NCBI GenBank assembly: GCA_015478725.1
Contig: JADMIG010000001.1
Coordinates: forward strand, 124,001-188,000
Reading direction: 5' to 3'
Length of the DNA stretch: 64,000 nucleotides
Source of the DNA: Chloroflexota bacterium
GTDB taxonomy: Bacteria; Chloroflexota; Limnocylindria; Limnocylindrales; CSP1-4
Positions 1 through 10,179 of the stretch are shown in pieces. Numbering within the stretch: the stretch's first letter is position 1; the number at the start of each line of letters is the position of its first letter. Under the pieces are notes generated by a model. The model did no database searches and had not been told where the DNA came from. It was given only the letters and a program-made list of their open reading frames with translations. The position numbers were made by a program, and so were the translations under genes.

Positions 1-1200
1 GGCGAGCTCGAGCGAGGCACCGAGCGACGCCCCGGCCATCGCCGCCTGCTGTCCAGCCTGCACTGCCAACCGGGCGCGGGCGGCGGCCAGCATGCCTGCC
101 GCGGCGGCCGCGGCAGGCCCGACCGTCTGCTCGAAGACGAGCGGCCAGTCGTCCACGACGAACCCCGCCCGGGTCGAGGTGACGAGCAGGTAGTCCGCCG
201 CGGTCGAGACCACCGCGGCGACGAGGTCGGTGGGCAGCGTCGCCCAGCGACCGAGGACCAGCCGGCTCACCGCCTCCACGTCGACGAGCTGCCAGCCCCG
301 CTCGGTCAGGCAGTTCTGCAACAACGTGCGGAGCCCGCGACGAGCGTCGGCGGAGAGATCGGCCGCGGGCGGGGTGAGGTCCGGGCTCACCACTGGCAGC
401 ACCACCCGGGCGAGCGCCGCGGCGACGAGGTCGAGGTCCCGGACGACCAGAGCGAGCGGCGCCGTGTCGAGGACGACCGAACGACGCAGGTAGGCGTCGG
501 GCAGGAGCCCGAGATCGCGCTCGGCATTGAGGGTGACGATCACCGTCGCCTGGATGTCGAGCTCGCCATCCTCGCTCTGGTACCGCGACACCCCCTCGAG
601 ATAGGCGAACACGGCCCCCCGCTGTTCGGGGCTCGCCTTGTCGAACTCGTCGAACATGACGAGCGGCAGGGAGAGCAGCGGGCTCGGCGTCATCTCCCAG
701 GACGCCGAGCCGGTCTGCACCCGCCGGCCGAGGAGGCTGCCCGGCGTCTCCCGCATGAGGAGGCGGCAGGCCGCGATGGGATCGAGTCCGAACCGCCGGG
801 CGGCGAGCGTGCCGAGGAGCGTCTTGCCGCTCTTCGTCGGACCGAGGAGGATGAAGGCCGGCCAGTTGCTCGGGTAGACATCGCGGAGGGCGCGCCGGGC
901 GATCACCGCGGCCTCGATCAGCCGAAGCATGGCCCGATGCTCCGCCGGGAGGGTGTCGAGGCTGGCGATCGACGCCGTCGGCTCGGGGACCGAGCTGGCC
1001 AGCGCGGCCCGCTTGCCGGCTCCGGTGAGGGTCCAGCTGCCCCTCGTCCGCTGTTCGACGAGGCCCCGCTCGCGCAGCCCGGCGAGGTGGTCTTGGACCG
1101 TCCGCCGTGACTCGCCGAGCGCGTCGGCAATGGGCGCGCTCCCGCGCTCGCCGGTCGCGAGCAGGTGGAGGATGTTCCTGTCGATCGTCGTCAGCTGCAT
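1..1200 (-). CDS. Winged-helix AAA+ ATPase (3' end beyond window)
   Basis: About 400 codons are visible from the ATG at 1200; the C-terminus lies off the left edge. Residues 1-65 look like a winged-helix DNA-binding domain, with a helix-turn-helix around SRRTVQDHLAGLRERG. A P-loop ATPase core follows: Walker A GPTKSGKT at about 120-127, Walker B LVMFDEFDK at about 180-188, and a sensor-like VIVTLNAERD near 215. The start overlaps the 3' end of the serine recombinase gene (its TGA is at 1191-1193), so the two are probably translationally coupled. A GGAG lies 4 nt before the ATG. I infer a DNA-bound ATPase belonging to the mobile element, perhaps a regulator or partner of the recombinase. The exact family is not recognised. 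Confidence 0.75.
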   Translation of the reverse strand, partial: MQLTTIDRNILHLLATGERGSAPIADALGESRRTVQDHLAGLRERGLVEQRTRGSWTLTGAGKRAALASSVPEPTASIASLDTLPAEHRAMLRLIEAAVIARRALRDVYPSNWPAFILLGPTKSGKTLLGTLAARRFGLDPIAACRLLMRETPGSLLGRRVQTGSASWEMTPSPLLSLPLVMFDEFDKASPEQRGAVFAYLEGVSRYQSEDGELDIQATVIVTLNAERDLGLLPDAYLRRSVVLDTAPLALVVRDLDLVAAALARVVLPVVSPDLTPPAADLSADARRGLRTLLQNCLTERGWQLVDVEAVSRLVLGRWATLPTDLVAAVVSTAADYLLVTSTRAGFVVDDWPLVFEQTVGPAAAAAAGMLAAARARLAVQAGQQAAMAGASLGASLELA

Positions 1201-2054
1201 TTCGCTCCGTCCCCATCGGTGGTCCGCGCTCGCAGCACGGTACCGTGCGCGAGCCGCACCGGCCGGTGCGCGAGACTGGCCGGGCCGGTGCGCGAAACCT
1301 CCGGAGTCTGCGCGGATGGCCGGCTGGTCACGCTCGTGGAGCACCCTCGGATTGCGCGAAGCTGCCCGGCGCCGGCAGGGAGGGGGGAGGGGGTGTCGGC
1401 GGGCTCCTGTCCGGCCGACTCCCCTGCCGGGTCGGCGGCCAGCAACCGGGCGAGGGTGGCGGTACCGATCCCCAGCCGGCGGGCGGCCTGGCGGCGGGAG
1501 AGGTGGCCGGCGGCGAGCTCGGTGCGCACCTTCGGCCAGCGACGGGCGAATACTGGCCGGGCCGTCACCGGCGGTCGGCCGATCCGCTTGCCCTGGCGGG
1601 CCGCGTGGCGCATCCCCTCGCGCACTCGATCGGCGATGAGCTCGCGCTCCATCTCGGCCACCGCGGCAAGGATCGTGAAGACGAGCCGTCCGGTCGCGCT
1701 CGTCGTATCGAGCTCCGGTTGGGTGAGGGCCGCGAAGCCGACCCCGGCATGCTCGAAGTCACGGAGGGTGGCAAGGGCATGGAGGGTCGAGCGGAAGGCC
1801 CGGTCGAGCTTCCAGACCATGACGAGATCGACCTTCCGCTGCGCAACGTCGGCGAGCAGACGCGCCCAGGCCGTGCGATGGGCGAGATCACCGGCCGCTG
1901 CCGTGTCGACGTACTCGAGCACCTCCCAGCCGCGCGTCCGGACATAGTCGCGCAGGGCGTCGAGCTGGAGCTCGGGGTCCTGGTCCTTGTCGCGGGTGCT
2001 GACCCTCGCGTACAGGGCGACCCGCAGCGGGCGAGGCGTGACGGTGCCGGTCAT
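1191..2054 (-). CDS. Serine recombinase (resolvase/invertase family)
   Basis: A 287-residue protein. The N-terminal resolvase domain carries the signature YARVSTRDKDQDPELQL with catalytic Ser19, and continues through VWKLDRAFRS and EMERELIADRVREGM, the usual core and arm-helix elements of small serine recombinases. A helix-turn-helix near residues 185-215 (LSRRQAARRLGIGTATLARL) should bind the recombination site. The last ~70 residues are low complexity and may be dispensable. The ATG at 2054 overlaps the stop of the upstream small gene by 4 bp (ATGA), which fixes the start. It probably mediates site-specific recombination or resolution for the integrative element. The target site is unknown. 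Confidence 0.9.
   Translation of the reverse strand: MTGTVTPRPLRVALYARVSTRDKDQDPELQLDALRDYVRTRGWEVLEYVDTAAAGDLAHRTAWARLLADVAQRKVDLVMVWKLDRAFRSTLHALATLRDFEHAGVGFAALTQPELDTTSATGRLVFTILAAVAEMERELIADRVREGMRHAARQGKRIGRPPVTARPVFARRWPKVRTELAAGHLSRRQAARRLGIGTATLARLLAADPAGESAGQEPADTPSPLPAGAGQLRAIRGCSTSVTSRPSAQTPEVSRTGPASLAHRPVRLAHGTVLRARTTDGDGAKCS
1235..1295 (-). promoter_or_regulatory. Candidate operator array upstream of the winged-helix ATPase
   Basis: A perfect 14-bp palindrome, GCACGGTACCGTGC, covers 1235-1248, only 35 bp upstream of the ATPase start. The octamer GTGCGCGA occurs three times at 1245, 1266 and 1288, spaced 21 and 22 bp, close to two helical turns. The array lies inside the 3' end of the recombinase gene. 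It could be the binding site of the downstream winged-helix protein (autoregulation) or a recombinase site. This is inference from the sequence pattern alone. Confidence 0.4.
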
Positions 2055-2323
2055 GGTGCCGCCTCGTGCCGCCGCTTGGCCGACCGGCGACGTGTCGTGG
2101 CCGATTTGGCCGCGAGCGCGGCCATGTATGCCTTTCGGGCAGCTTCCGCTCGGGCGACCCGCTCTGCGGGGGGCAGAATGCCGTCGGGGTCTACGTCGCG
2201 CTCGAAGCGGTCGAGGAAGGCGCGCCGGCCGGCGGCGGTGTACTCGTGCGGATCGTGGGTCGCGCGCAGGCGCAACCCGCCGATGCGGCCATACAGCTGA
2301 GGGAGTGAAGGTCTCCGTGACAT
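2051..2323 (-). CDS. Small conserved protein paired with recombinase
   Basis: A 90-residue basic protein starting at ATG 2323. The central part (YGRIGGLRLRATHDPHEYT, then AAGRRAFLDRFERDVDPDG) looks like a folded conserved core; the tail is Arg/Lys/Ala rich. Proteins with this wording are, from memory, often encoded beside recombinases in high-GC mobile elements, but no function is established that I know of. It is the first gene of a tight operon: its TGA overlaps the recombinase ATG. It may be an accessory DNA-binding or directionality factor (inference). Confidence 0.65.
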   Translation of the reverse strand: MSRRPSLPQLYGRIGGLRLRATHDPHEYTAAGRRAFLDRFERDVDPDGILPPAERVARAEAARKAYMAALAAKSATTRRRSAKRRHEAAP

Positions 2324-2759
2324 GTGCGAGCTTCCCCACCCCGCGCGCAACGGGGCTCCGAAACTCGCAGGGTCCGGCGACAAGCCGGCCCACACCGGGA
2401 TCCGAGGGCCCACCGTCCCGATCCAGGTGGATCGTCCGGCCAGACCCCGTTCCCGCCGACAACTGCCCGGCGGGCGGCTCCCTTTGCGATGACTTCCTCA
2501 GCGACTAGGTCCGCCGTAGTGCCGACGGCCCGCTGCCCGATGGGCAGGTGCTCTCTGCTGAGGAAGCCTGCTATTCAGCTACCGCGGACGCTACACCGCG
2601 GTGTCAAGTCCCGCCAGTCCGTTTCCACGCCCATCGTTGATCGCCTGGATCGTTGGGGCCGTCGCACTGTGGCCCGCGGCGCTGATGTGGTGGTTCTGAC
2701 TCCTCGACGCCGACGACCGGGACGGCTACCTCGACGCCGCACGCGATCGCCTGCGCGCG
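2324..2759. other. Gene-poor gap in the mobile element
   Basis: No gene is supported here. The stretch is less GC-biased than its surroundings and separates the minus-strand recombinase operon from the next plausible reading frame. It contains two short hairpins: CTGCCC/GGGCAG at 2533-2547, and a perfect 7-bp repeat pair ACCGCGG/CCGCGGT at 2581-2602 with an 8-nt spacer. Either could be a terminator or a recombinase-related site. A protein-like but start-less frame runs from 2700 into the next ORF, so part of the gap may be a decayed gene. Confidence 0.4.
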
Positions 2760-3200
2760 ATGTTCGGCCTGGACATCGCGGACTGGTTGCGCTCGCCCCA
2801 GGCGGCCGTCGCCCGTGGTCGACGCGATGAGATGATTGCCTCCGAATGGTCCGTCACCCGCGCCAAGACGCCCGACAGTGAGATCGTGGTCAAGGGGTGG
2901 GCCGTGAACGAGTACGCATATGCCCGAGGTCTGGAGGATCGGCTCGCCGGGGTATCAGCTGGCCTCGCCCGCCGTCGTCGCCAGTCCGTTCCCCTCGGGA
3001 TCCGCGGCCAGAACCGGGCCGTCCGGACCGATGGTGCCCTCGCGCTGGCCTCCGCCCGACAGCGGGCGTTCGGTGGTGTGACGGCCGCCCTCCAGCCGGC
3101 CGTCACCGCGTCCCATCTGGCCGCCGGCCAGACCGTGACGATCGGCGGCGCTCAGGCACCAGCCCGTAGAAGCACCTTCCGGGCCCGTCCGCCGGCGTGA
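2760..3200 (+). CDS. Hypothetical protein, possibly a 5'-truncated gene
   Basis: A 146-codon plus-strand frame with strong G/C bias at third positions and a protein-like start region (MFGLDIADWLRSPQAAVARG). The open frame extends upstream to a TGA at 2697-2699 with equally protein-like residues (LLDADDRDGYLDAARDRLRA), so the true start is uncertain and the gene may have lost its 5' end. I recognise no domain; the C-terminal third is low complexity and basic. It is the only plus-strand candidate in the mobile element, and the overlapping minus-strand frame looks like its shadow. Confidence 0.4.
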   Translation: MFGLDIADWLRSPQAAVARGRRDEMIASEWSVTRAKTPDSEIVVKGWAVNEYAYARGLEDRLAGVSAGLARRRRQSVPLGIRGQNRAVRTDGALALASARQRAFGGVTAALQPAVTASHLAAGQTVTIGGAQAPARRSTFRARPPA

Positions 3201-3262
3201 GGACCCCAGTATGGTCTCGCCCGGCGTCGTCGCCGGCAGGCCAGCGGCTCGTGTCGCCGCGA

Positions 3263-3844
3263 TCACGACGATCGTGAGCGCGATCGGCGTCGCGGGCGGG
3301 CGCGGTCCATGACGACGATGAATGTGGCTGGGGTTGCCTTCGGAAGCAGCGAGTCGGGCGCCGGGTCGCCCGGACGACGGCCGCTGATCCGGAGCCAGGC
3401 CCTGCACGCGCAGCGCACCTCGCAGGGCCCACGCGCGGGCTCCCGGAACCAGATCATGCGCCCGGAGGCGTCGGTCTCGGTCTCGCCGGGGTGCGGCCCA
3501 CTGGGTCGCCAGACGATGCGCGCGGTTCCGTCGGGCTGTGGTATCGGCACGAGCTCGCGCCGTGGGCGTGGGCGCGGGGCCGTGCCCAGGGCGCTGGCCG
3601 GCCGCTCGTATACCGGCCGACCGCGCTGGGCGCTCTGCGCCATGTCGAGGGACAGGTCGACGTCGAGCGTGAGCTCGGCGGGGACGAGCGGCGGGTTGCC
3701 CTGCGTCGAGGCTCCCTGCCGGCCCACGATCCGGCGGCAGTACGGGCAGCTGAGGTGCCGCAGTCGGAAGGCCGTGCGTCGGCGTCGCGGATCCGGGTAC
3801 CACTCGCCGTAGCGCACCTCCGCCGCGACGCGTTCCTCGCTCAC
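3263..3844 (-). CDS. Putative zinc-binding protein coupled to the integrase
   Basis: A 193-residue protein starting at GTG 3844, which overlaps the stop of the tyrosine recombinase by 4 bp (GTGA), so it is the second gene of an integrase operon. It carries CPYC at about 33-36 and a second cluster, CEVRCAC, at about 141-147, which together could form a zinc-binding site. Conserved-looking tryptophans and a short acidic stretch lie between them, and the C-terminal 20 residues are very Arg-rich. No family is recognised. The tight coupling suggests a role in excision control or element maintenance (inference). Confidence 0.6.
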
Positions 3845-4788
3845 AGCTGATCGCCCGGGTTGAAACGCCGCGCCGCGGCGATGGCGCGATCGGCCGCCGT
3901 CGCCGCGGCGTAGCGTTGGAGCATCGCCCGACTGCGCCAGCCGGCGAGCTGCATGAGATCGCCCTCTTGCATCCCGGCCGCCAGCATGGCGTGAGCGTAG
4001 CTGTGGCGAAACTGATGGGGGTGGACGCCCGGCATGCCGGCGGCCAGGCCGCGCTCGCGGACGAGGTGCCCGACCCCCGAGATGGTGAGGCGTCCTTTGC
4101 GGGCGATCCAGAGCCAGGGCAGGTTGGCGTGGGCGTGCCGTGCCCGCAGCCGGGTGTAGCGGTCGAGCGCCTTGACCGCCTTCGCGCCCACGTGGGTGGT
4201 CCGTTCACGACGGCCCTTGCCGAGGACGCGGATGATCCCCGCGTCGAGATCGACGTCGTTCGTCAGCGGATCATCGGGCGTCCAGCGGAGGTTGGCGATC
4301 TCCGAGAGCCGCGCCCCCGTGCCGATGAACGTGCGGATGATCGCGAGGTCGCGGCGGTCCTCGAACGACGGCCCCGCGCAGGCCGCGAGGATGCGGCGCA
4401 GGTCGTCCTCGGCGAGGACCGCGGGCGGCGCCTCGGGCAGCTTGGGCTTGCGCATCCGCGCCATGGGACTCTGGCGGATCTCGCCCTCCTCCTCGGCCCA
4501 GCGGAAGAACGCCTGCAGCCCGGAGTAGCGATTGAACGCGGTGGCCGGCCGCCAGCGCGCGAGCTGGTCCTCGATGAACGCCTCGACATGCTCGCGCCGG
4601 ATGGCCGCGAGGTCGGTGGGCATGCCCTGCGCCGCGAGAAAGTCGGCGAAGCGATCGATGCTCGCGAGGTAGGTCGTGACCGTGGCAGGCGCAAGGTTCC
4701 CCGCCCGCAGGCCGCGGGCGAAGCTCGTCCGGTTGACGGCGAGGTCGCCGTGGCGTTGAATGGTGGGCGTGGTGGGTCTTGGCGGCAT
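3841..4788 (-). CDS. Tyrosine recombinase/integrase (XerC/D-like)
   Basis: A 315-residue integrase with an N-terminal SAM-like core-binding domain (about 20-110) and a C-terminal catalytic domain (about 125-305). Visible catalytic elements are Arg in [26 protein letters not shown] (the H-x-x-R box), [14 protein letters not shown] with the Trp/His position and the nucleophile Tyr. It is a full-length simple phage/ICE or Xer-type enzyme. It lies 109 bp from tRNA-Lys(CTT), a typical integration target, and reads away from the tRNA. The ATG at 4788 is chosen as the first in-frame start after the intergenic region. It probably integrates and excises the element occupying the left end of the window. 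Confidence 0.9.
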
Positions 4789-4897
4789 CGCGGGTGTGCC
4801 TCTGGGGGGGGGTTCGAAGACGCCCCAGTTTTACGCCCTACGAGCGCCGTAGTCAAGGCAAACCGCAGGTATACGCTCTAGTGGAGCGTGAAACGGC
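4789..4897. promoter_or_regulatory. Integrase-tRNA intergenic region: promoter and possible attachment site
   Basis: This 109-bp gap must hold the integrase promoter (minus) and the tRNA promoter (plus). Inverted repeats CTACG/CGTAG near 4843-4857 and ACGCTC/GAGCGT at 4873-4889 could be integrase arm or core sites. A TACGCT box at 4872-4877, about 20 nt before the tRNA, fits the TAnnnT -10 form seen elsewhere in the window. The matching attachment repeat at the other element end would lie outside the window. Confidence 0.35.
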
Positions 4898-4972
4898 GGG
4901 CCGGTAGCTCAACGGTAGAGCAAGTGACTCTTAATCACTTGGTTGAGAGTTCGAATCTCTCCCGGCTCACCA
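4898..4972 (+). tRNA. tRNA-Lys (anticodon CTT), CCA encoded
   Basis: A complete 75-nt cloverleaf. The acceptor GGGCCGG pairs with CCGGCTC (one G-U). The D-stem is GCTC/GAGC. The anticodon stem AGTGA/TCACT closes the loop CTCTTAA, placing CTT at 4930-4932. The variable loop has 5 nt, and the T-stem GAGAG/CTCTC closes TTCGAAT. Discriminator A is at 4969 and CCA at 4970-4972. It is probably the target of the adjacent integrase, though the element lies on its 5' side, whereas integration into the 3' half is more usual. Confidence 0.97.
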
Positions 4973-5039
4973 TCAGGCCGTGCGCACTCGCCACCCGGCG
5001 AGTTGACGCCGGTTACGCCTCTCGCCTAGGCTTCGCGAC

Positions 5040-5100
5040 GGCGATGGTTCCCGCCGAGACGCGCTGCGTCTGAACCGCCCCGGACGGGCTGATGGCTCCT
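5040..5100 (+). ncRNA. Fluoride riboswitch (crcB motif)
   Basis: The sequence follows the crcB motif. GGCGATGG with a closing CGCC forms the first stem at 5040-5055. An optional AGACGC/GCGTCT hairpin and the AACCGCC joint follow. The 3' element GGGCTGATGGCTCCT ends at 5100, after GCCC/GGGC pairing. The pseudoknot between the first loop and GGCTCC has two non-pairing central positions, so it is slightly off consensus. Directly downstream is an operon with CrcB, the known fluoride channel, which strongly supports the call. A small CTGCT/AGCAG hairpin at about 5104-5114 could be part of the expression platform. The ATG at 5092 lies inside the conserved CTGATGGCTCC and is therefore not the start of the next gene. 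Confidence 0.85.
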
Positions 5101-5154
5101 GGACTGCTGAGCAGCCAGGGGCCGTCGTCGTTCCTGGGGACCGGAGGTTCGGAC

Positions 5155-6393
5155 GTGGACAACGTCTATCTCGTCGCCGCCGCCTGGATGGGCCTCGCGC
5201 TCGCGGCCAGCCTCGCCTCGATCAGGCTCGGCATCTCTGTCGCCCTCGTGGAGATCGCGATGGGGGTGCTCGCCGGCAACACGGTCCACCTCCAGTCGAC
5301 CCCATGGATCGACTTCCTCGCCGGCTTCGGATCCGGCCTCCTCACGTTCCTCGCAGGCGCCGAGATCGACCCCGAGTCGCTCCGCCGTCACGCCCGGATC
5401 TCGCTCACCGTGGGCGTCATCTCGTTCCTCCTCCCGTTCCTCGTCGCGTTCGGCTTCGCCTACTTCGTGGCGGGCTGGGGCCTTGCGGCATCGGAGATCG
5501 CCGGCGTGTCGCTGTCGACGACGTCCGTCGCGGTCGTCTACGCGGTGATGATCGAATCCGGCCTCGCCGAGGTGGATCTCGGGAAGACGATCCTTGCCGC
5601 CTGCTTCGTCACGGATCTCGGGACCGTGCTCGGCCTCGGCGTGCTGTTCGCCGACTTCGATCCGCTCCTCCTCGGCTTCATCGCGACGACGACGGTCACC
5701 CTCTACTTCATGCCGCGCTGGACCCGATGGTTCATCGTCCATGTGCCGGGCCGGGTGTCAGAACCGGAGATCAAGTTCCTCTTCTTCGTCCTGTTCCTCC
5801 TCGGCGGCCTGGCCGCTCAGGCGAAGAGTGAGGCAGTGCTCCCGGCCTACCTCGTGGGGCTCGCCGTTGCGGGCGTCTTCGTCCGCGACCGTGTCCTCGT
5901 CGATCGGATGCGCTCGATCGCGTTCGGCCTGCTCACGCCGTTCTACTTCATCAAGGCCGGCCTGTATGTCTCGCTCCCGGCCGTCGCCGCGGGAATCGGC
6001 CTCATCGTCGCCTTCCTCGGGCTCAAGATCGCCGCCAAGATCGTCGGCGTGTGGCCCACGAGCCGGGCCTTCGGGTTGCCCGTGCGCGAGGCGAACTACA
6101 TGACGCTCCTCATGGCGACGGGGTTGACGTTCGGGACGATCGCGGCCTTGTTCGGACTCACGAACGGCTACATCGACCAGGCGCGGTACACGATCCTTGT
6201 CACGACGGTCATCCTGTCAGCGGTGGTGCCGACGTTCATCGCGACGAAGTTCTTCGAGCCACGGGCGATCAGCGAACTCGAAACCGCAGAGATCGAGGCC
6301 GCCGAGGGGATCGACGCGGACGGGCTCGGCCGTCGTCGGGCGATCCACATCGATGACAGCGCAGGTGGCTCGAGAGAGGTGGAGCCGGCGTGA
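5155..6393 (+). CDS. CPA2-type cation:proton antiporter of the fluoride operon
   Basis: A 412-residue integral membrane protein with about 12 hydrophobic segments and the CPA2/KefB-like layout: a first half with FLAGAEIDPESLRRHARIS, and a second half with a long transport domain (YFIKAGLYVSLPAV, LMATGLTFGTIAAL). The start is GTG 5155, preceded by GGAGG at 5143-5147 with 7-nt spacing; the upstream in-frame ATG 5092 is inside the riboswitch. It overlaps crcB by 4 bp. Proton antiporters are known members of fluoride-riboswitch regulons. This one may help export fluoride or restore pH under fluoride load (inference). The ion carried cannot be told from sequence. Confidence 0.85.
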   Translation: MDNVYLVAAAWMGLALAASLASIRLGISVALVEIAMGVLAGNTVHLQSTPWIDFLAGFGSGLLTFLAGAEIDPESLRRHARISLTVGVISFLLPFLVAFGFAYFVAGWGLAASEIAGVSLSTTSVAVVYAVMIESGLAEVDLGKTILAACFVTDLGTVLGLGVLFADFDPLLLGFIATTTVTLYFMPRWTRWFIVHVPGRVSEPEIKFLFFVLFLLGGLAAQAKSEAVLPAYLVGLAVAGVFVRDRVLVDRMRSIAFGLLTPFYFIKAGLYVSLPAVAAGIGLIVAFLGLKIAAKIVGVWPTSRAFGLPVREANYMTLLMATGLTFGTIAALFGLTNGYIDQARYTILVTTVILSAVVPTFIATKFFEPRAISELETAEIEAAEGIDADGLGRRRAIHIDDSAGGSREVEPA

Positions 6394-6761
6394 CGTATCT
6401 CGCGATCTCGATCGGGGCGGTGCTCGGGGCGAACGCTCGCTACCTCATCGGCGGCTGGGTGGCGGACCGGATGGGAGCGAGCTTCCCGTACGGGACCCTC
6501 GTCATCAACATCAGCGGCTCGTTCCTTCTCGGGGTCGCCATCACGCTGGTCACCGAACGGGCGATCGGGCCGTGGTGGATCCGGCCGGGCTTTGCCATCG
6601 GCTTCGTCGGCGCCTACACCACGTTCTCCACCTTCAGCTACGAGACGCTCAGTCTCATGCAGGCCGGGAGCCTCGTCGCCGCCGCTGCCAACATCGTGAG
6701 CAGCGTGGGCGGCGCGCTCGCCGGCGTGTACCTCGGATCGCTGCTCGTCCGGGCGTTGTGA
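6390..6761 (+). CDS. crcB: Fluoride channel CrcB/Fluc
   Basis: A 123-residue four-helix membrane protein with both family signatures: NISGSFLLG at about 44-52, and GFVGAYTTFSTFSYE at about 71-85 holding the TTFS fluoride-path residues. Members form antiparallel dimers that let F- leave the cytoplasm. The GTG start at 6390 overlaps the antiporter stop (GTGA), with GGTGGAG upstream. It is the second gene of the riboswitch-led operon, so expression should rise with fluoride. Confidence 0.96.
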   Translation: MTYLAISIGAVLGANARYLIGGWVADRMGASFPYGTLVINISGSFLLGVAITLVTERAIGPWWIRPGFAIGFVGAYTTFSTFSYETLSLMQAGSLVAAAANIVSSVGGALAGVYLGSLLVRAL

Positions 6762-6774
6762 GGAGGACGGATCG

Positions 6775-8070
6775 ATGCGACCGCACAGTCGGGGTCTTCG
6801 CGTCCAGGTCTTCGTCGGCGAGGCGGATCAGGCGGGCCGCATCCCCCGCTACCAGGCGATCCTCGAATACCTCCGCCGGGAGGGCGCGGCGGGCGCCACC
6901 GTCGTCCGGGGGGTGGCCGGCTTCGGGGTCAACAGCAAGATCCACACCGCGGCCATCCTCCGTCTGTCGATGGACCTGCCGATGATCCTCACCTGGGTGG
7001 ATGCACCCGGCCGGGTCGAGCGATTGCTGCCCGGCCTCGTCGAGCTGGCAGGCTCGGGTGTCGTCACGGTGGAGGAGGTCGGTGTCGCGGCGTACGGGGG
7101 GCGGCGCCTCGAGCAGCTCCGGTTCGATCTGCCCGTCGGCGACGTCATGACCCGGTCCGTCGTCTCCATCGACGATGCGGCGCCGGTCCGCGCCGCCGTG
7201 GGCCTGCTGCTCGACCGGGACTTCCGGGCTCTCCCGGTCGTCGACCGCGACCGGCGCGTCCTCGGCCTCGTCACCAACGGCGACCTCGTCCGCCGCGGGA
7301 AGCTCGGGGCGCGCCTGGAGCTCCTCGCCGCGATGAAGGAGGAGACGAGGACGTCGGTCCTCGAACACCTCGATGCCCAGCAGACGGTGCGGGACGTGAT
7401 GAGCGTCGACCCGACGACGATCCCGGCTGGAGCGACGCTGGCGGAGGCGACGCATCTCATGGCGGACCGCCATCTGAAGCGCGTGCCCGTCGTCGACGGC
7501 GATGGGCGGCTGGTCGGGATCCTTGCCCGATCGGACGTCCTCCGGGCGGTGGGTGAGACGTTCCCGCGGGAGGGGGCGGCCCACGAGGACCACGCGGGCG
7601 CCCAGACGGTCGGCGAGATCATGCGCCACGACGCGCCGATCGTGCTCGCCGACGCCGAGCTCGGGACGCTGCTCGATGCCGTGACCTCGACCCGCCTCAA
7701 CCGGGCCGTCATCGTGGACGCGGACGACCGGGTCCTCGGCGTCGTGAGCGACGCCGACATCATCGCATCCGTCGATCCGGCGGCCGCGAACGGTCTCCTC
7801 GGCGCGCTCATGCGGACGGCGGGGCGGCCAACGGGTTCCGGACTGACGGCGGCCCGGCTCATCCGGCGACCACTCGTGACGATCGCCCAGACGGCGACGA
7901 TCGCCGAGGCGGCGCGGCTCATGATCGACGAGCGGCGGAAGGTCCTCAGCGTCACGGACCCAAGCGGCCGATTGCTCGGCATCGTCGACCGGGCGGATCT
8001 CCTCGCCGCGACAGGCGAGGCACTGGGGGAGCTCACGGCGTCGCCGGCCGACGACGACGATGACGGATAG
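6775..8070 (+). CDS. DUF190 protein with four CBS domains
   Basis: A 431-residue cytoplasmic protein. Residues 1-110 form a DUF190 domain (PII-like fold; VQVFVGEADQ, GFGVNSKIHTAAILRLS), a family often encoded beside crcB. Four CBS motifs follow, at about 119-180, 203-262, 280-335 and 360-425, giving two Bateman modules that usually bind adenine nucleotides. The tail is poly-Asp. An AGGAGG lies 7 nt before the ATG. It closes the fluoride operon, and a nucleotide- or ion-sensing regulator of the two transporters is the natural inference. DUF190 joined to four CBS domains is less usual than stand-alone DUF190. Confidence 0.85.
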   Translation: MRPHSRGLRVQVFVGEADQAGRIPRYQAILEYLRREGAAGATVVRGVAGFGVNSKIHTAAILRLSMDLPMILTWVDAPGRVERLLPGLVELAGSGVVTVEEVGVAAYGGRRLEQLRFDLPVGDVMTRSVVSIDDAAPVRAAVGLLLDRDFRALPVVDRDRRVLGLVTNGDLVRRGKLGARLELLAAMKEETRTSVLEHLDAQQTVRDVMSVDPTTIPAGATLAEATHLMADRHLKRVPVVDGDGRLVGILARSDVLRAVGETFPREGAAHEDHAGAQTVGEIMRHDAPIVLADAELGTLLDAVTSTRLNRAVIVDADDRVLGVVSDADIIASVDPAAANGLLGALMRTAGRPTGSGLTAARLIRRPLVTIAQTATIAEAARLMIDERRKVLSVTDPSGRLLGIVDRADLLAATGEALGELTASPADDDDDG

Positions 8071-8184: not shown

Positions 8185-10179
8185 ATGGAGGAACCGCCGC
8201 ACCCGCCGTCGCCGTCCCAGCCGATCCCGGGACGTCGACCCGGAGACCGGCGGGTCCGGGTCAACCGGCCGCACTCGACCTATTTTCGCTACGGCGCTCC
8301 AGGCGTCCTCGTCGCGCGGCCGAACGCGAGCGAACCCACGGCGCCTGGCGCGCGCCTCCTCGTCCGGCTGCGGCGCCTGGCCTTCGGCGCGCCACTCGCG
8401 AGCGAGGATGAGGCCGGGGAGCGGCTCTCGAAGCTCAAGGCGCTCGCCGTCTTCTCGAGCGACATGCTCTCGTCCGTCGCCTATGCGACCGAGGCGATCC
8501 TCTTCACTCTCCTCGCGGCGGGCACCGGTGCCTTCGGTCTCATGCTCCCGATCGCCGGGCTCATCGTCACGATCCTCTGGATCATCGTCATCTCGTACCG
8601 CCAGACGATCCAGGCCTATCCCGGCGGCGGCGGCAGCTACATCGTCGCGAAGGAGAACCTGGGGACACTTGCGGGGCTCATCGCCGCCGCGGCCCTCCTA
8701 ACCGACTATGTCCTCACCGTCTCGGTCAGCGTCGCGGCCGGTGTCGCCGCGATCACCTCGGCGTTCCCCGGAGCCCTGAACCACCTCGCGGTCCCGATCG
8801 CGACGGTCTGCATCCTCGGGGTCATGGTGGTCAATCTGCGGGGCATCCGGGAGAGCGGCACGATCTTCGCCATCCCGACCTACGTCTTTGTCGTGACGGC
8901 GCTCGGCCTCATCGGGGTCGGCATCCTCCGGACCGTTCTCGGCGATACGCCGACGGTGACGAACATCCACGAGGCGACGGTACCCATCCAGTCGCTCGGG
9001 ATCCTCCTCGTCATGCGGGCGTTCGCCGACGGCTGCAGCGCGATCACCGGGGTCGAAGCCGTCTCGAACGGCGTTCCCGCCTTCCGCAAGCCTGAGGCCG
9101 CGAACGCCCGGGCCACCCTCACGATCATGGGCATCCTCGTCGGCACGATGTTCATCGGCATCTCGATCCTCGCCCGCGTGGCGGGGGCGATCCCGTCGAC
9201 CGATGAGACGATCATGTCGCAGCTCGGACGGGCGACCTTCGGGACCGGACCGATCTACTACCTGCTCCAGCTGTCCACGACCGGGATCCTCGTCCTCGCG
9301 GCGAACACGAGCTTCGCGGATTTCCCGAGGCTCGCGTCGCTCCTGGCCCGGGACGGGTTCATGCCGAGCCGCTTCGCGTTCCGTGGCGAACGGCTCGCCT
9401 TCTCCACCGGGATCGTCGCCCTGGCGATCATCGCGATCGTCGTCCTCGCCGCCTTCGGCGGCCGGGTGGAGGCGCTCATCCCGCTGTACGCGATCGGCGT
9501 CTTCACGTCCATCACCCTGAGCCAGGCCGGCATGGTCCGCCACTGGCTCCGGGAGCGCGGCGCGGGCTGGCGTCGCAGCGCCGTCATCAACGGCTTCGGA
9601 GCGGTGTCGACCTCGATCGTCACCGTGATCTTCGCCGTCGCCAAGTTCGCGCTCGGTGCGTGGCTCATCGTCCTCATCATCCCGCTCATCGTCGCGGCCA
9701 TGCGCTTCGTCCACCGCCAGTACGAGCGACGCCGGGTGGAGATCCACGTTCGCCCCGAGGTCGTCCTCGGGCGGCCGCGGCGCGCCCAGCGCGTCATCGT
9801 GCCGGCGCCGGAGGTGACCCGTGACGTCATCCAGGCGGTGAAGTTCGGGCAGACAATGTCGGACGACGTGACCGTCGTCCACGTGACGGACGATGTCGAG
9901 CGAGGCGAGGAGATCCGGGACCGGTTCCTCCGCCAGGTGCCCGGCGTGCCGTTCGTCATCGTCGAGTCGCCGTACCGTGCCCTCGTCCGGCCGCTCATCC
10001 GGTACCTCGAGATGAGCGCCGACCCGAACGACGTCCTCGTCGTGCTGCTGCCCGAGTACATCCCTCGCCACTGGTGGGAGAAGTACCTGTACAACGAGAA
10101 CGCCCGACGGATCCGCAACGCCCTGCTCGGGCGTCGGAACATCCTCGTCGCCGATGTGCCGTTCCGGCGGGACGTCTGA
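8185..10179 (+). CDS. APC-superfamily potassium transporter, KimA-like
   Basis: A 664-residue protein with about 12 transmembrane helices between residues 85 and 505 and a ~150-residue cytoplasmic C-terminal domain. Motifs typical of the KimA/YdaO branch are YPGGGGSYIVAKENLG near 147-162 and FADFPRLASLLARDGF near 375. KimA proteins import K+ with protons and in several bacteria are switched off by cyclic di-AMP bound at the cytoplasmic domain. The N-terminal ~70 residues are longer than in the Bacillus protein. It stands alone behind a leaderless promoter. An amino-acid substrate is the alternative. Confidence 0.8.
   Translation: MEEPPHPPSPSQPIPGRRPGDRRVRVNRPHSTYFRYGAPGVLVARPNASEPTAPGARLLVRLRRLAFGAPLASEDEAGERLSKLKALAVFSSDMLSSVAYATEAILFTLLAAGTGAFGLMLPIAGLIVTILWIIVISYRQTIQAYPGGGGSYIVAKENLGTLAGLIAAAALLTDYVLTVSVSVAAGVAAITSAFPGALNHLAVPIATVCILGVMVVNLRGIRESGTIFAIPTYVFVVTALGLIGVGILRTVLGDTPTVTNIHEATVPIQSLGILLVMRAFADGCSAITGVEAVSNGVPAFRKPEAANARATLTIMGILVGTMFIGISILARVAGAIPSTDETIMSQLGRATFGTGPIYYLLQLSTTGILVLAANTSFADFPRLASLLARDGFMPSRFAFRGERLAFSTGIVALAIIAIVVLAAFGGRVEALIPLYAIGVFTSITLSQAGMVRHWLRERGAGWRRSAVINGFGAVSTSIVTVIFAVAKFALGAWLIVLIIPLIVAAMRFVHRQYERRRVEIHVRPEVVLGRPRRAQRVIVPAPEVTRDVIQAVKFGQTMSDDVTVVHVTDDVERGEEIRDRFLRQVPGVPFVIVESPYRALVRPLIRYLEMSADPNDVLVVLLPEYIPRHWWEKYLYNENARRIRNALLGRRNILVADVPFRRDV

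Follow-up and report, generated by a model that had tools for sequence, protein, structure and literature searches.

A fluoride riboswitch-led operon of a Chloroflexota genome that joins an antiporter and a fluoride channel to a candidate nucleotide-controlled DUF190-CBS protein

What does a fluoride riboswitch control when it stands before an antiporter, a fluoride channel and a protein with one DUF190 and four CBS domains? The question is raised by a locus in a 64,000 nucleotide (nt) stretch of a Chloroflexota bacterium of the GTDB lineage CSP1-4 (GCA_015478725.1, contig JADMIG010000001.1, positions 124,001-188,000 of the forward strand), the whole of which is here called the window. The genome (3.4 Mb in 151 contigs, 96% complete) holds one fluoride riboswitch, one CrcB and one DUF190 gene; it is nearest to metagenome-derived Chloroflexi genomes, and a contig scan gave only five close relatives. 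We conclude, with high confidence as regards the riboswitch and the operon, that the operon is genuine and of a known kind, and that it includes a regulatory component which is widespread yet undescribed. It is probable that a fluoride-ON riboswitch runs a three-gene unit for efflux and for pH and ion adjustment, in which the DUF190-CBS protein would act as an adenylate sensor that gates FluC or the antiporter. The regulation of fluoride export activity has been listed as an open area (PMC11139923); with a conserved candidate regulator encoded next to the channel, it becomes testable.

The leader RNA and its expression platform

A covariance-model search with RF01734 scored 36.5 bits (gathering threshold 34, E = 1.9e-6) at 5031-5108 on the plus strand, the sole match in the genome, bearing out the fluoride riboswitch that an earlier reading of this DNA (the original prediction) had proposed; the sub-threshold score that was named there as part of a refutation was not obtained. 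A whole-window Rfam scan returned two RNAs, this aptamer and a tRNA-Lys at 4898-4969. Within the aptamer core (5040-5100), P1 is formed by 5040-5043/5052-5055 and a second hairpin by 5077-5080/5086-5089, and a pseudoknot joins 5046-5051 (GGUUCC) to 5094-5099 (GGCUCC). The core motifs GGCGAUGG and CUGAUG are present, as is the linchpin A5092-U5100, whose U is conserved in all 37 of the distinct phylum aptamers compared. The motif had been predicted to end at 5100, which is the position of this linchpin partner (T5100 in the DNA).

Four of the six pseudoknot pairs are standard, with internal mismatches at the third (U5048.U5097) and the fourth (U5049.C5096). The pseudoknot had been said to deviate from consensus at two positions; both mismatches are real, but the first is common (17 of the 37 aptamers lack a third pair) and only the second is unusual. 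The fourth pair is unpaired in three aptamers, those of the window, L032 and L142 (L-numbers denote comparison loci and G-numbers comparison genomes, both from the phylum), and all three have a C-G fifth pair. The pseudoknot pairs hardly vary among the 13 antiporter leaders used for stem covariation, so covariation there says little. In the same leaders an extra stem in the aptamer linker (5057-5062/5066-5071, plus strand) shows compensatory changes at all six pairs (0 of 500 shuffles).

The aptamer is overlapped by an expression-platform hairpin at 5094-5123 on the plus strand (5094-5102/5115-5123; −24.6 kcal/mol, z = −4.8, 0 of 200 shuffles). Its 5' arm, GGCUCCUGG (5094-5102), is perfectly complementary to CCAGGGGCC (5115-5123) and includes the pseudoknot strand and the linchpin U; hairpin and pseudoknot are mutually exclusive. 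Because the hairpin is conserved in most relatives, with compensatory changes, and is directly followed on its 3' side by terminator-like T-runs in distant relatives (L147, L142, L139 and L084), the leader is best read as a fluoride-ON attenuator, in which termination at the window locus would be weak or assisted. Upstream, a promoter-like TTGACG-N18-TAGGCT at 5003-5032 (plus strand) matches 8 of 12 consensus bases, was equalled in 3 of 300 shuffles and ends 7 nt 5' of the aptamer. Most relatives have TTGACn-N15..18-TAnnnT at a comparable position before the aptamer; a stricter promoter scan did not pick up the 5003-5032 site. Transcription would begin near 5039. When fluoride and Mg2+ are present, the pseudoknot would form together with the linchpin A5092-U5100; without fluoride the strand 5091-5102 would instead pair with 5115-5126, giving a terminator-type hairpin and lower expression. 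The hairpin pairing is supported by folding and comparison, and the ligand response is expected by analogy with the riboswitch family, other members of which use the linchpin and pseudoknot to decide against an overlapping intrinsic terminator (PMC11077080).

Several observations weigh against a working attenuator. The RF01734 score exceeds its threshold by only 2.5 bits, a U.C mismatch occupies the fourth pseudoknot position, the hairpin is followed by a poor U-tract (GUCGUCGUU at 5124-5132), and a standard terminator scan passes no terminator at the window leader. The modest score, the two mismatches and the poor U-tract could mean that the riboswitch is degenerate and its fluoride response lost. 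However, the linchpin is retained, as are the core motifs, the extra stem and the platform, and L032 and L142 have the same mismatch yet retain operon and platform, which makes degeneration most unlikely. The main rival is control of translation, with the hairpin and downstream pairing hiding the GGAGG/GTG of the antiporter and the terminator U-tract lost in this lineage. The Shine-Dalgarno (SD)-like GGAGG, as read from the sequence, lies at 5143-5147 (plus strand), 7 nt before GTG 5155. Besides the poor U-tract, such control is favoured by the whole-leader ligand-free fold, which pairs the SD region too, and by CUCCGG..CCGGAG flanking the SD in L031 and L029; on the other side, T-runs stand right after the same hairpin in distant relatives, and shuffled sequences do as well as the window SD stem by itself (z = +1.5). 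Translational control is thus a realistic possibility, though distinctly the less likely one, and the fluoride-ON attenuator remains our preferred reading of the leader.

The operon and its antiporter

Three genes follow the leader on the plus strand. The first (5155-6393) encodes an antiporter of the Na+/H+ exchanger family related to NapA (PF00999, 134 bits against a cut-off of 26.2). Its start had been placed at GTG 5155, and this is supported both by the SD-like GGAGG and by riboswitch-led homologues, which start at an aligned GTG or ATG; the ATG at 5092 of a mechanical open reading frame (ORF) list was rejected, since it falls inside the aptamer and the start codons of relatives line up with GTG 5155 instead. 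The second gene (6390-6761, GTG start) overlaps the antiporter stop and encodes the FluC/CrcB fluoride channel (PF02537, 89.7 against 32.9; TIGR00494, 100.1 against 80.45). The third (6775-8070, ATG start) encodes a 431-residue protein with a DUF190 domain (PF02641, 102 bits against 23.4; about 6799-7086) and four CBS stretches (PF00571, 156.6 bits; 7138-7287, 7390-7542, 7612-7761 and 7858-8004). CrcB, DUF190 and the four CBS domains were thus correctly named in the original prediction, and its riboswitch-led operon is upheld by the covariance model, the promoter-like site, the covarying platform and a gene order that recurs in other families. The complete order of riboswitch, antiporter, CrcB and DUF190-CBS is also found in L031 and, in a distant family, in L142. 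Partial versions comprise riboswitch-antiporter-DUF190-CBS with no CrcB (L029), antiporter-DUF190-CBS (L169), riboswitch-CrcB-DUF190-CBS (L030, L140 and L141) and riboswitch-DUF190-CBS (L146), and L139 carries part of the same gene set too.

With described RF01734 systems (Weinberg 2010, PMC2864571; PMC11139923) the locus shares the aptamer, an ON-type platform overlapping the pseudoknot and the control of CrcB and an antiporter; it differs in the two pseudoknot mismatches, the extra covarying linker stem, the poor U-tract and the DUF190-4xCBS gene. The fluoride operon of Enterobacter cloacae FRM (PMC5533749) is likewise riboswitch-led and multi-gene, and pairs crcB with a stress/sensor-type gene (uspA), but it has pyrophosphatase, enolase, UspA and GpmA, and its six named genes include no antiporter or DUF190-CBS.

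A profile of seven antiporter family members finds NapA (4bwz, E = 7e-10). The window antiporter itself does not reach the curated cut-off of the CPA2 model TIGR00932 (95.1 against 238.3) or that of KefC (NF002924, 21.9 against 752). The protein has the Na_H_Exchanger fold of NapA and KefC and no RCK domain. T153-D154 aligns with NapA D156-D157, K295 aligns with K305, and none of these residues varies among the seven members, so that the second Asp and the Lys of NapA are kept and Thr replaces the first Asp of the Asp-Asp pair that, with the Lys, marks electrogenic NapA-type exchangers. From established knowledge of the superfamily, this loss suggests electroneutral exchange.

Members of this antiporter clade, defined by the seven-member profile at E ≤ 1e-60, were found in 32 of 301 phylum genomes. 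A riboswitch lies ∼40-400 nt upstream in at least 22 of these 32; seven are without one and three are ambiguous. The association is already known: a review ranks Na+/H+ antiporters directly behind exporters among the classes most often associated with the riboswitch (PMC11139923), and as early as 2010 K+ transport genes had been reported with this riboswitch class (PMC2864571). The antiporter had been called uncommon, a description that does not hold in the fluoride context. A universal stress protein adjoins the antiporter in L139, L184, L188 and L190, which is consistent with a recurrent nucleotide-type sensor there.

A new result, and the most unexpected one here, is the occurrence of the riboswitch-antiporter pair in genomes without a known exporter. 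No CrcB or CLC was detected in five such genomes that are 92-99% complete (G027, G035, G097, G134 and G235), nor in five that are 84-88% complete (G034, G092, G172, G211 and G087); the window's own genome has CrcB together with one full CLC. Only one riboswitch was detected in each of G034, G027, G035, G097, G172 and G087. In G235 a CrcB may be hidden in an assembly gap, because there is a weak DUF190 match and CrcB is present in its genus. These genomes raise the question of how such cells survive fluoride.

The DUF190-CBS protein and the proposed mechanism

DUF190 and CrcB were surveyed in 400 phylum genomes. DUF190 was found in 117, and CrcB is present in 112 of these where 55.6 would be expected (Fisher p = 5e-40, a value that ignores shared ancestry). 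Among the matches listed, at least 39 of 48 short and at least 27 of 58 long DUF190 genes have CrcB 42-242 nt upstream of them, and the two genes are usually adjacent. All 37 of the long DUF190 ORFs with at least three CBS domains carry exactly four; the fusion is a common form in the phylum, not special to the window locus.

An AlphaFold model of the protein from 38 sequences (pLDDT 84.7) gives DUF190 a ferredoxin-like fold of beta-alpha-beta-beta-alpha-beta order, which matches PII proteins by order of elements, and a loop (46-66, between strands 2 and 3), modelled with low confidence, takes the place of the PII T-loop. The four CBS stretches form a tandem with an adenylate-sensor fold, nearest to the AMP complex of SSO3205 (3ddj, Z = 22.1), to MJ1225 (3lfz, Z = 19.9) and to AMPK gamma (Z ∼17). 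The Asp of the nucleotide motif is conserved in 35 of 38 sequences in CBS1, 33 in CBS2, 28 in CBS3 and 12 in CBS4; the protein thus has in common with these sensors the four tandem CBS domains, the overall fold and the nucleotide-type Asp in CBS1-3, and differs from them in its fusion to DUF190 and in having a channel or antiporter, instead of a kinase, as its presumed partner. The pairs GlnK-AmtB and SbtB-SbtA similarly have a small ferredoxin-like nucleotide-type sensor encoded beside a membrane transporter; unlike these sensors, DUF190 is a separate Pfam family, is here fused to four CBS domains and gave no PII match in the profile search. A GlnK-like, transport-modulating role was earlier proposed for DUF190 in Pelobacter (PMC3543383), and among the papers searched none relevant joined DUF190 with fluoride, CBS or PII-like proteins.

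These data strengthen the original proposal of a nucleotide-controlled regulator, which co-occurrence with CrcB, adjacency and domain anatomy render plausible. Most likely, and with moderate confidence by analogy, the protein is a PII-like/AMPK-gamma-like adenylate sensor that gates FluC or the antiporter. The following scheme is proposed. Fluoride would induce FluC/CrcB, through which F− exits; entry of HF, its dissociation and the exit of F− through FluC would amount to a proton leak. Given such a leak, and a pH gradient that sets fluoride trapping, the antiporter may restore pH and cation balance, either by relieving the acid load (the view of PMC11139923) or by a KefC-like lowering of the pH gradient that traps fluoride. 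The DUF190-4xCBS protein would read adenine nucleotides and gate FluC or the antiporter by energy status, as GlnK gates AmtB. FluC has been described as a passive channel (PMC13104614), and a gate on it makes sense because an open F− leak costs membrane potential. The stronger statement, that the protein is a nucleotide-controlled gate of FluC or its partner antiporter that ties efflux to adenylate charge and is conserved with CrcB across the phylum, is put forward tentatively.

Some of the evidence tells against these assignments. A DUF190 profile search of the PDB gives no PII protein, TM0021 and PH1503 being the only relatives found; in relatives only one PII gene turned up, too few to compare profiles. 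Second DUF190-CBS copies without CrcB nearby occur in L155, L157, L163, L166 and L168, and therefore CrcB is not their only possible partner. The protein might have its role elsewhere, ribosome dormancy being one example, and be only co-induced, since SriA/SriB and Dri, CBS proteins bound to archaeal ribosomes, are among its top fold matches. This is improbable, however, as the fold is common to all tandem CBS proteins and the genomic linkage is to CrcB. For the antiporter, the ten genomes with no detected CrcB or CLC favour a KefC-like protection in which protons move in and cations out, the pH gradient falls, less fluoride is trapped and no exporter is needed. The substitution of Thr for the first electrogenic-pair Asp while the Lys is retained agrees with it, as does the frequent tolerance of a lower internal pH in fluoride-adapted yeast (PMC11139923); yet the same review sees antiporters as relief from acidification, the direction and coupling of antiport are only putative, and G235 may have its CrcB in an assembly gap. 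We regard KefC-like protection as a serious contender that falls short of being the favoured one. The antiporter clade could even be a third kind of fluoride exporter, as in each of the six single-riboswitch genomes, none with a detected CrcB or CLC, it is the only gene behind the one riboswitch detected. The superfamily transports cations, though, many genomes have both antiporter and CrcB, and draft genomes can miss genes, so that an exporter role is very unlikely. A three-gene unit of efflux, pH and ion adjustment and adenylate sensing thus remains the reading that we prefer.

Neighbouring genes and related loci

Directly upstream of the operon are a resolvase-type serine recombinase (1191-2462, minus strand), a XerC/D-like tyrosine recombinase (3841-4788, minus strand) and tRNA-Lys(CTT) at 4898-4972. 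The recombinases and tRNA (1191-4972) possibly mark the edge of a mobile element. A PADLOC scan gave no defence-system match, and a defence system was dropped as a reading of the locus. The gene after DUF190-CBS (8185-10179, plus strand) encodes a KimA-type potassium transporter (6s3k, E = 5e-145); it was considered and rejected as a conserved operon member, having no match in the loci of sampled relatives.

Several arrangements in the comparison loci are recorded here in their own right. In L134 (1275-6364) a fluoride riboswitch, two MutS-domain-V proteins, CrcB and DUF190-4xCBS succeed one another in one direction, and in L156 (13-3311, minus strand) a c-di-AMP riboswitch (81.9 bits) that leads a SulP-STAS transporter comes after CrcB and DUF190-4xCBS. 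In family f21 (L145, L147, L149 and L161) paired crcB genes have two co-directional DUF190 neighbours, one short and one DUF190-4xCBS, perhaps encoding a heterodimeric FluC with two DUF190 proteins. DUF6062 (PF19538) proteins recur behind or near fluoride riboswitches (L144:3706-4446, L147:9212-11077, L191:4508-5740, L196:3933-4688 and L184:6266-7696), one of them fused to a dynamin-type GTPase. Finally, L142 (3104-4318), L139 (5645-7024) and L197 (2950-4167) each encode a similar MFS transporter, which follows either a fluoride riboswitch or the antiporter and is a possible further fluoride-related transporter.

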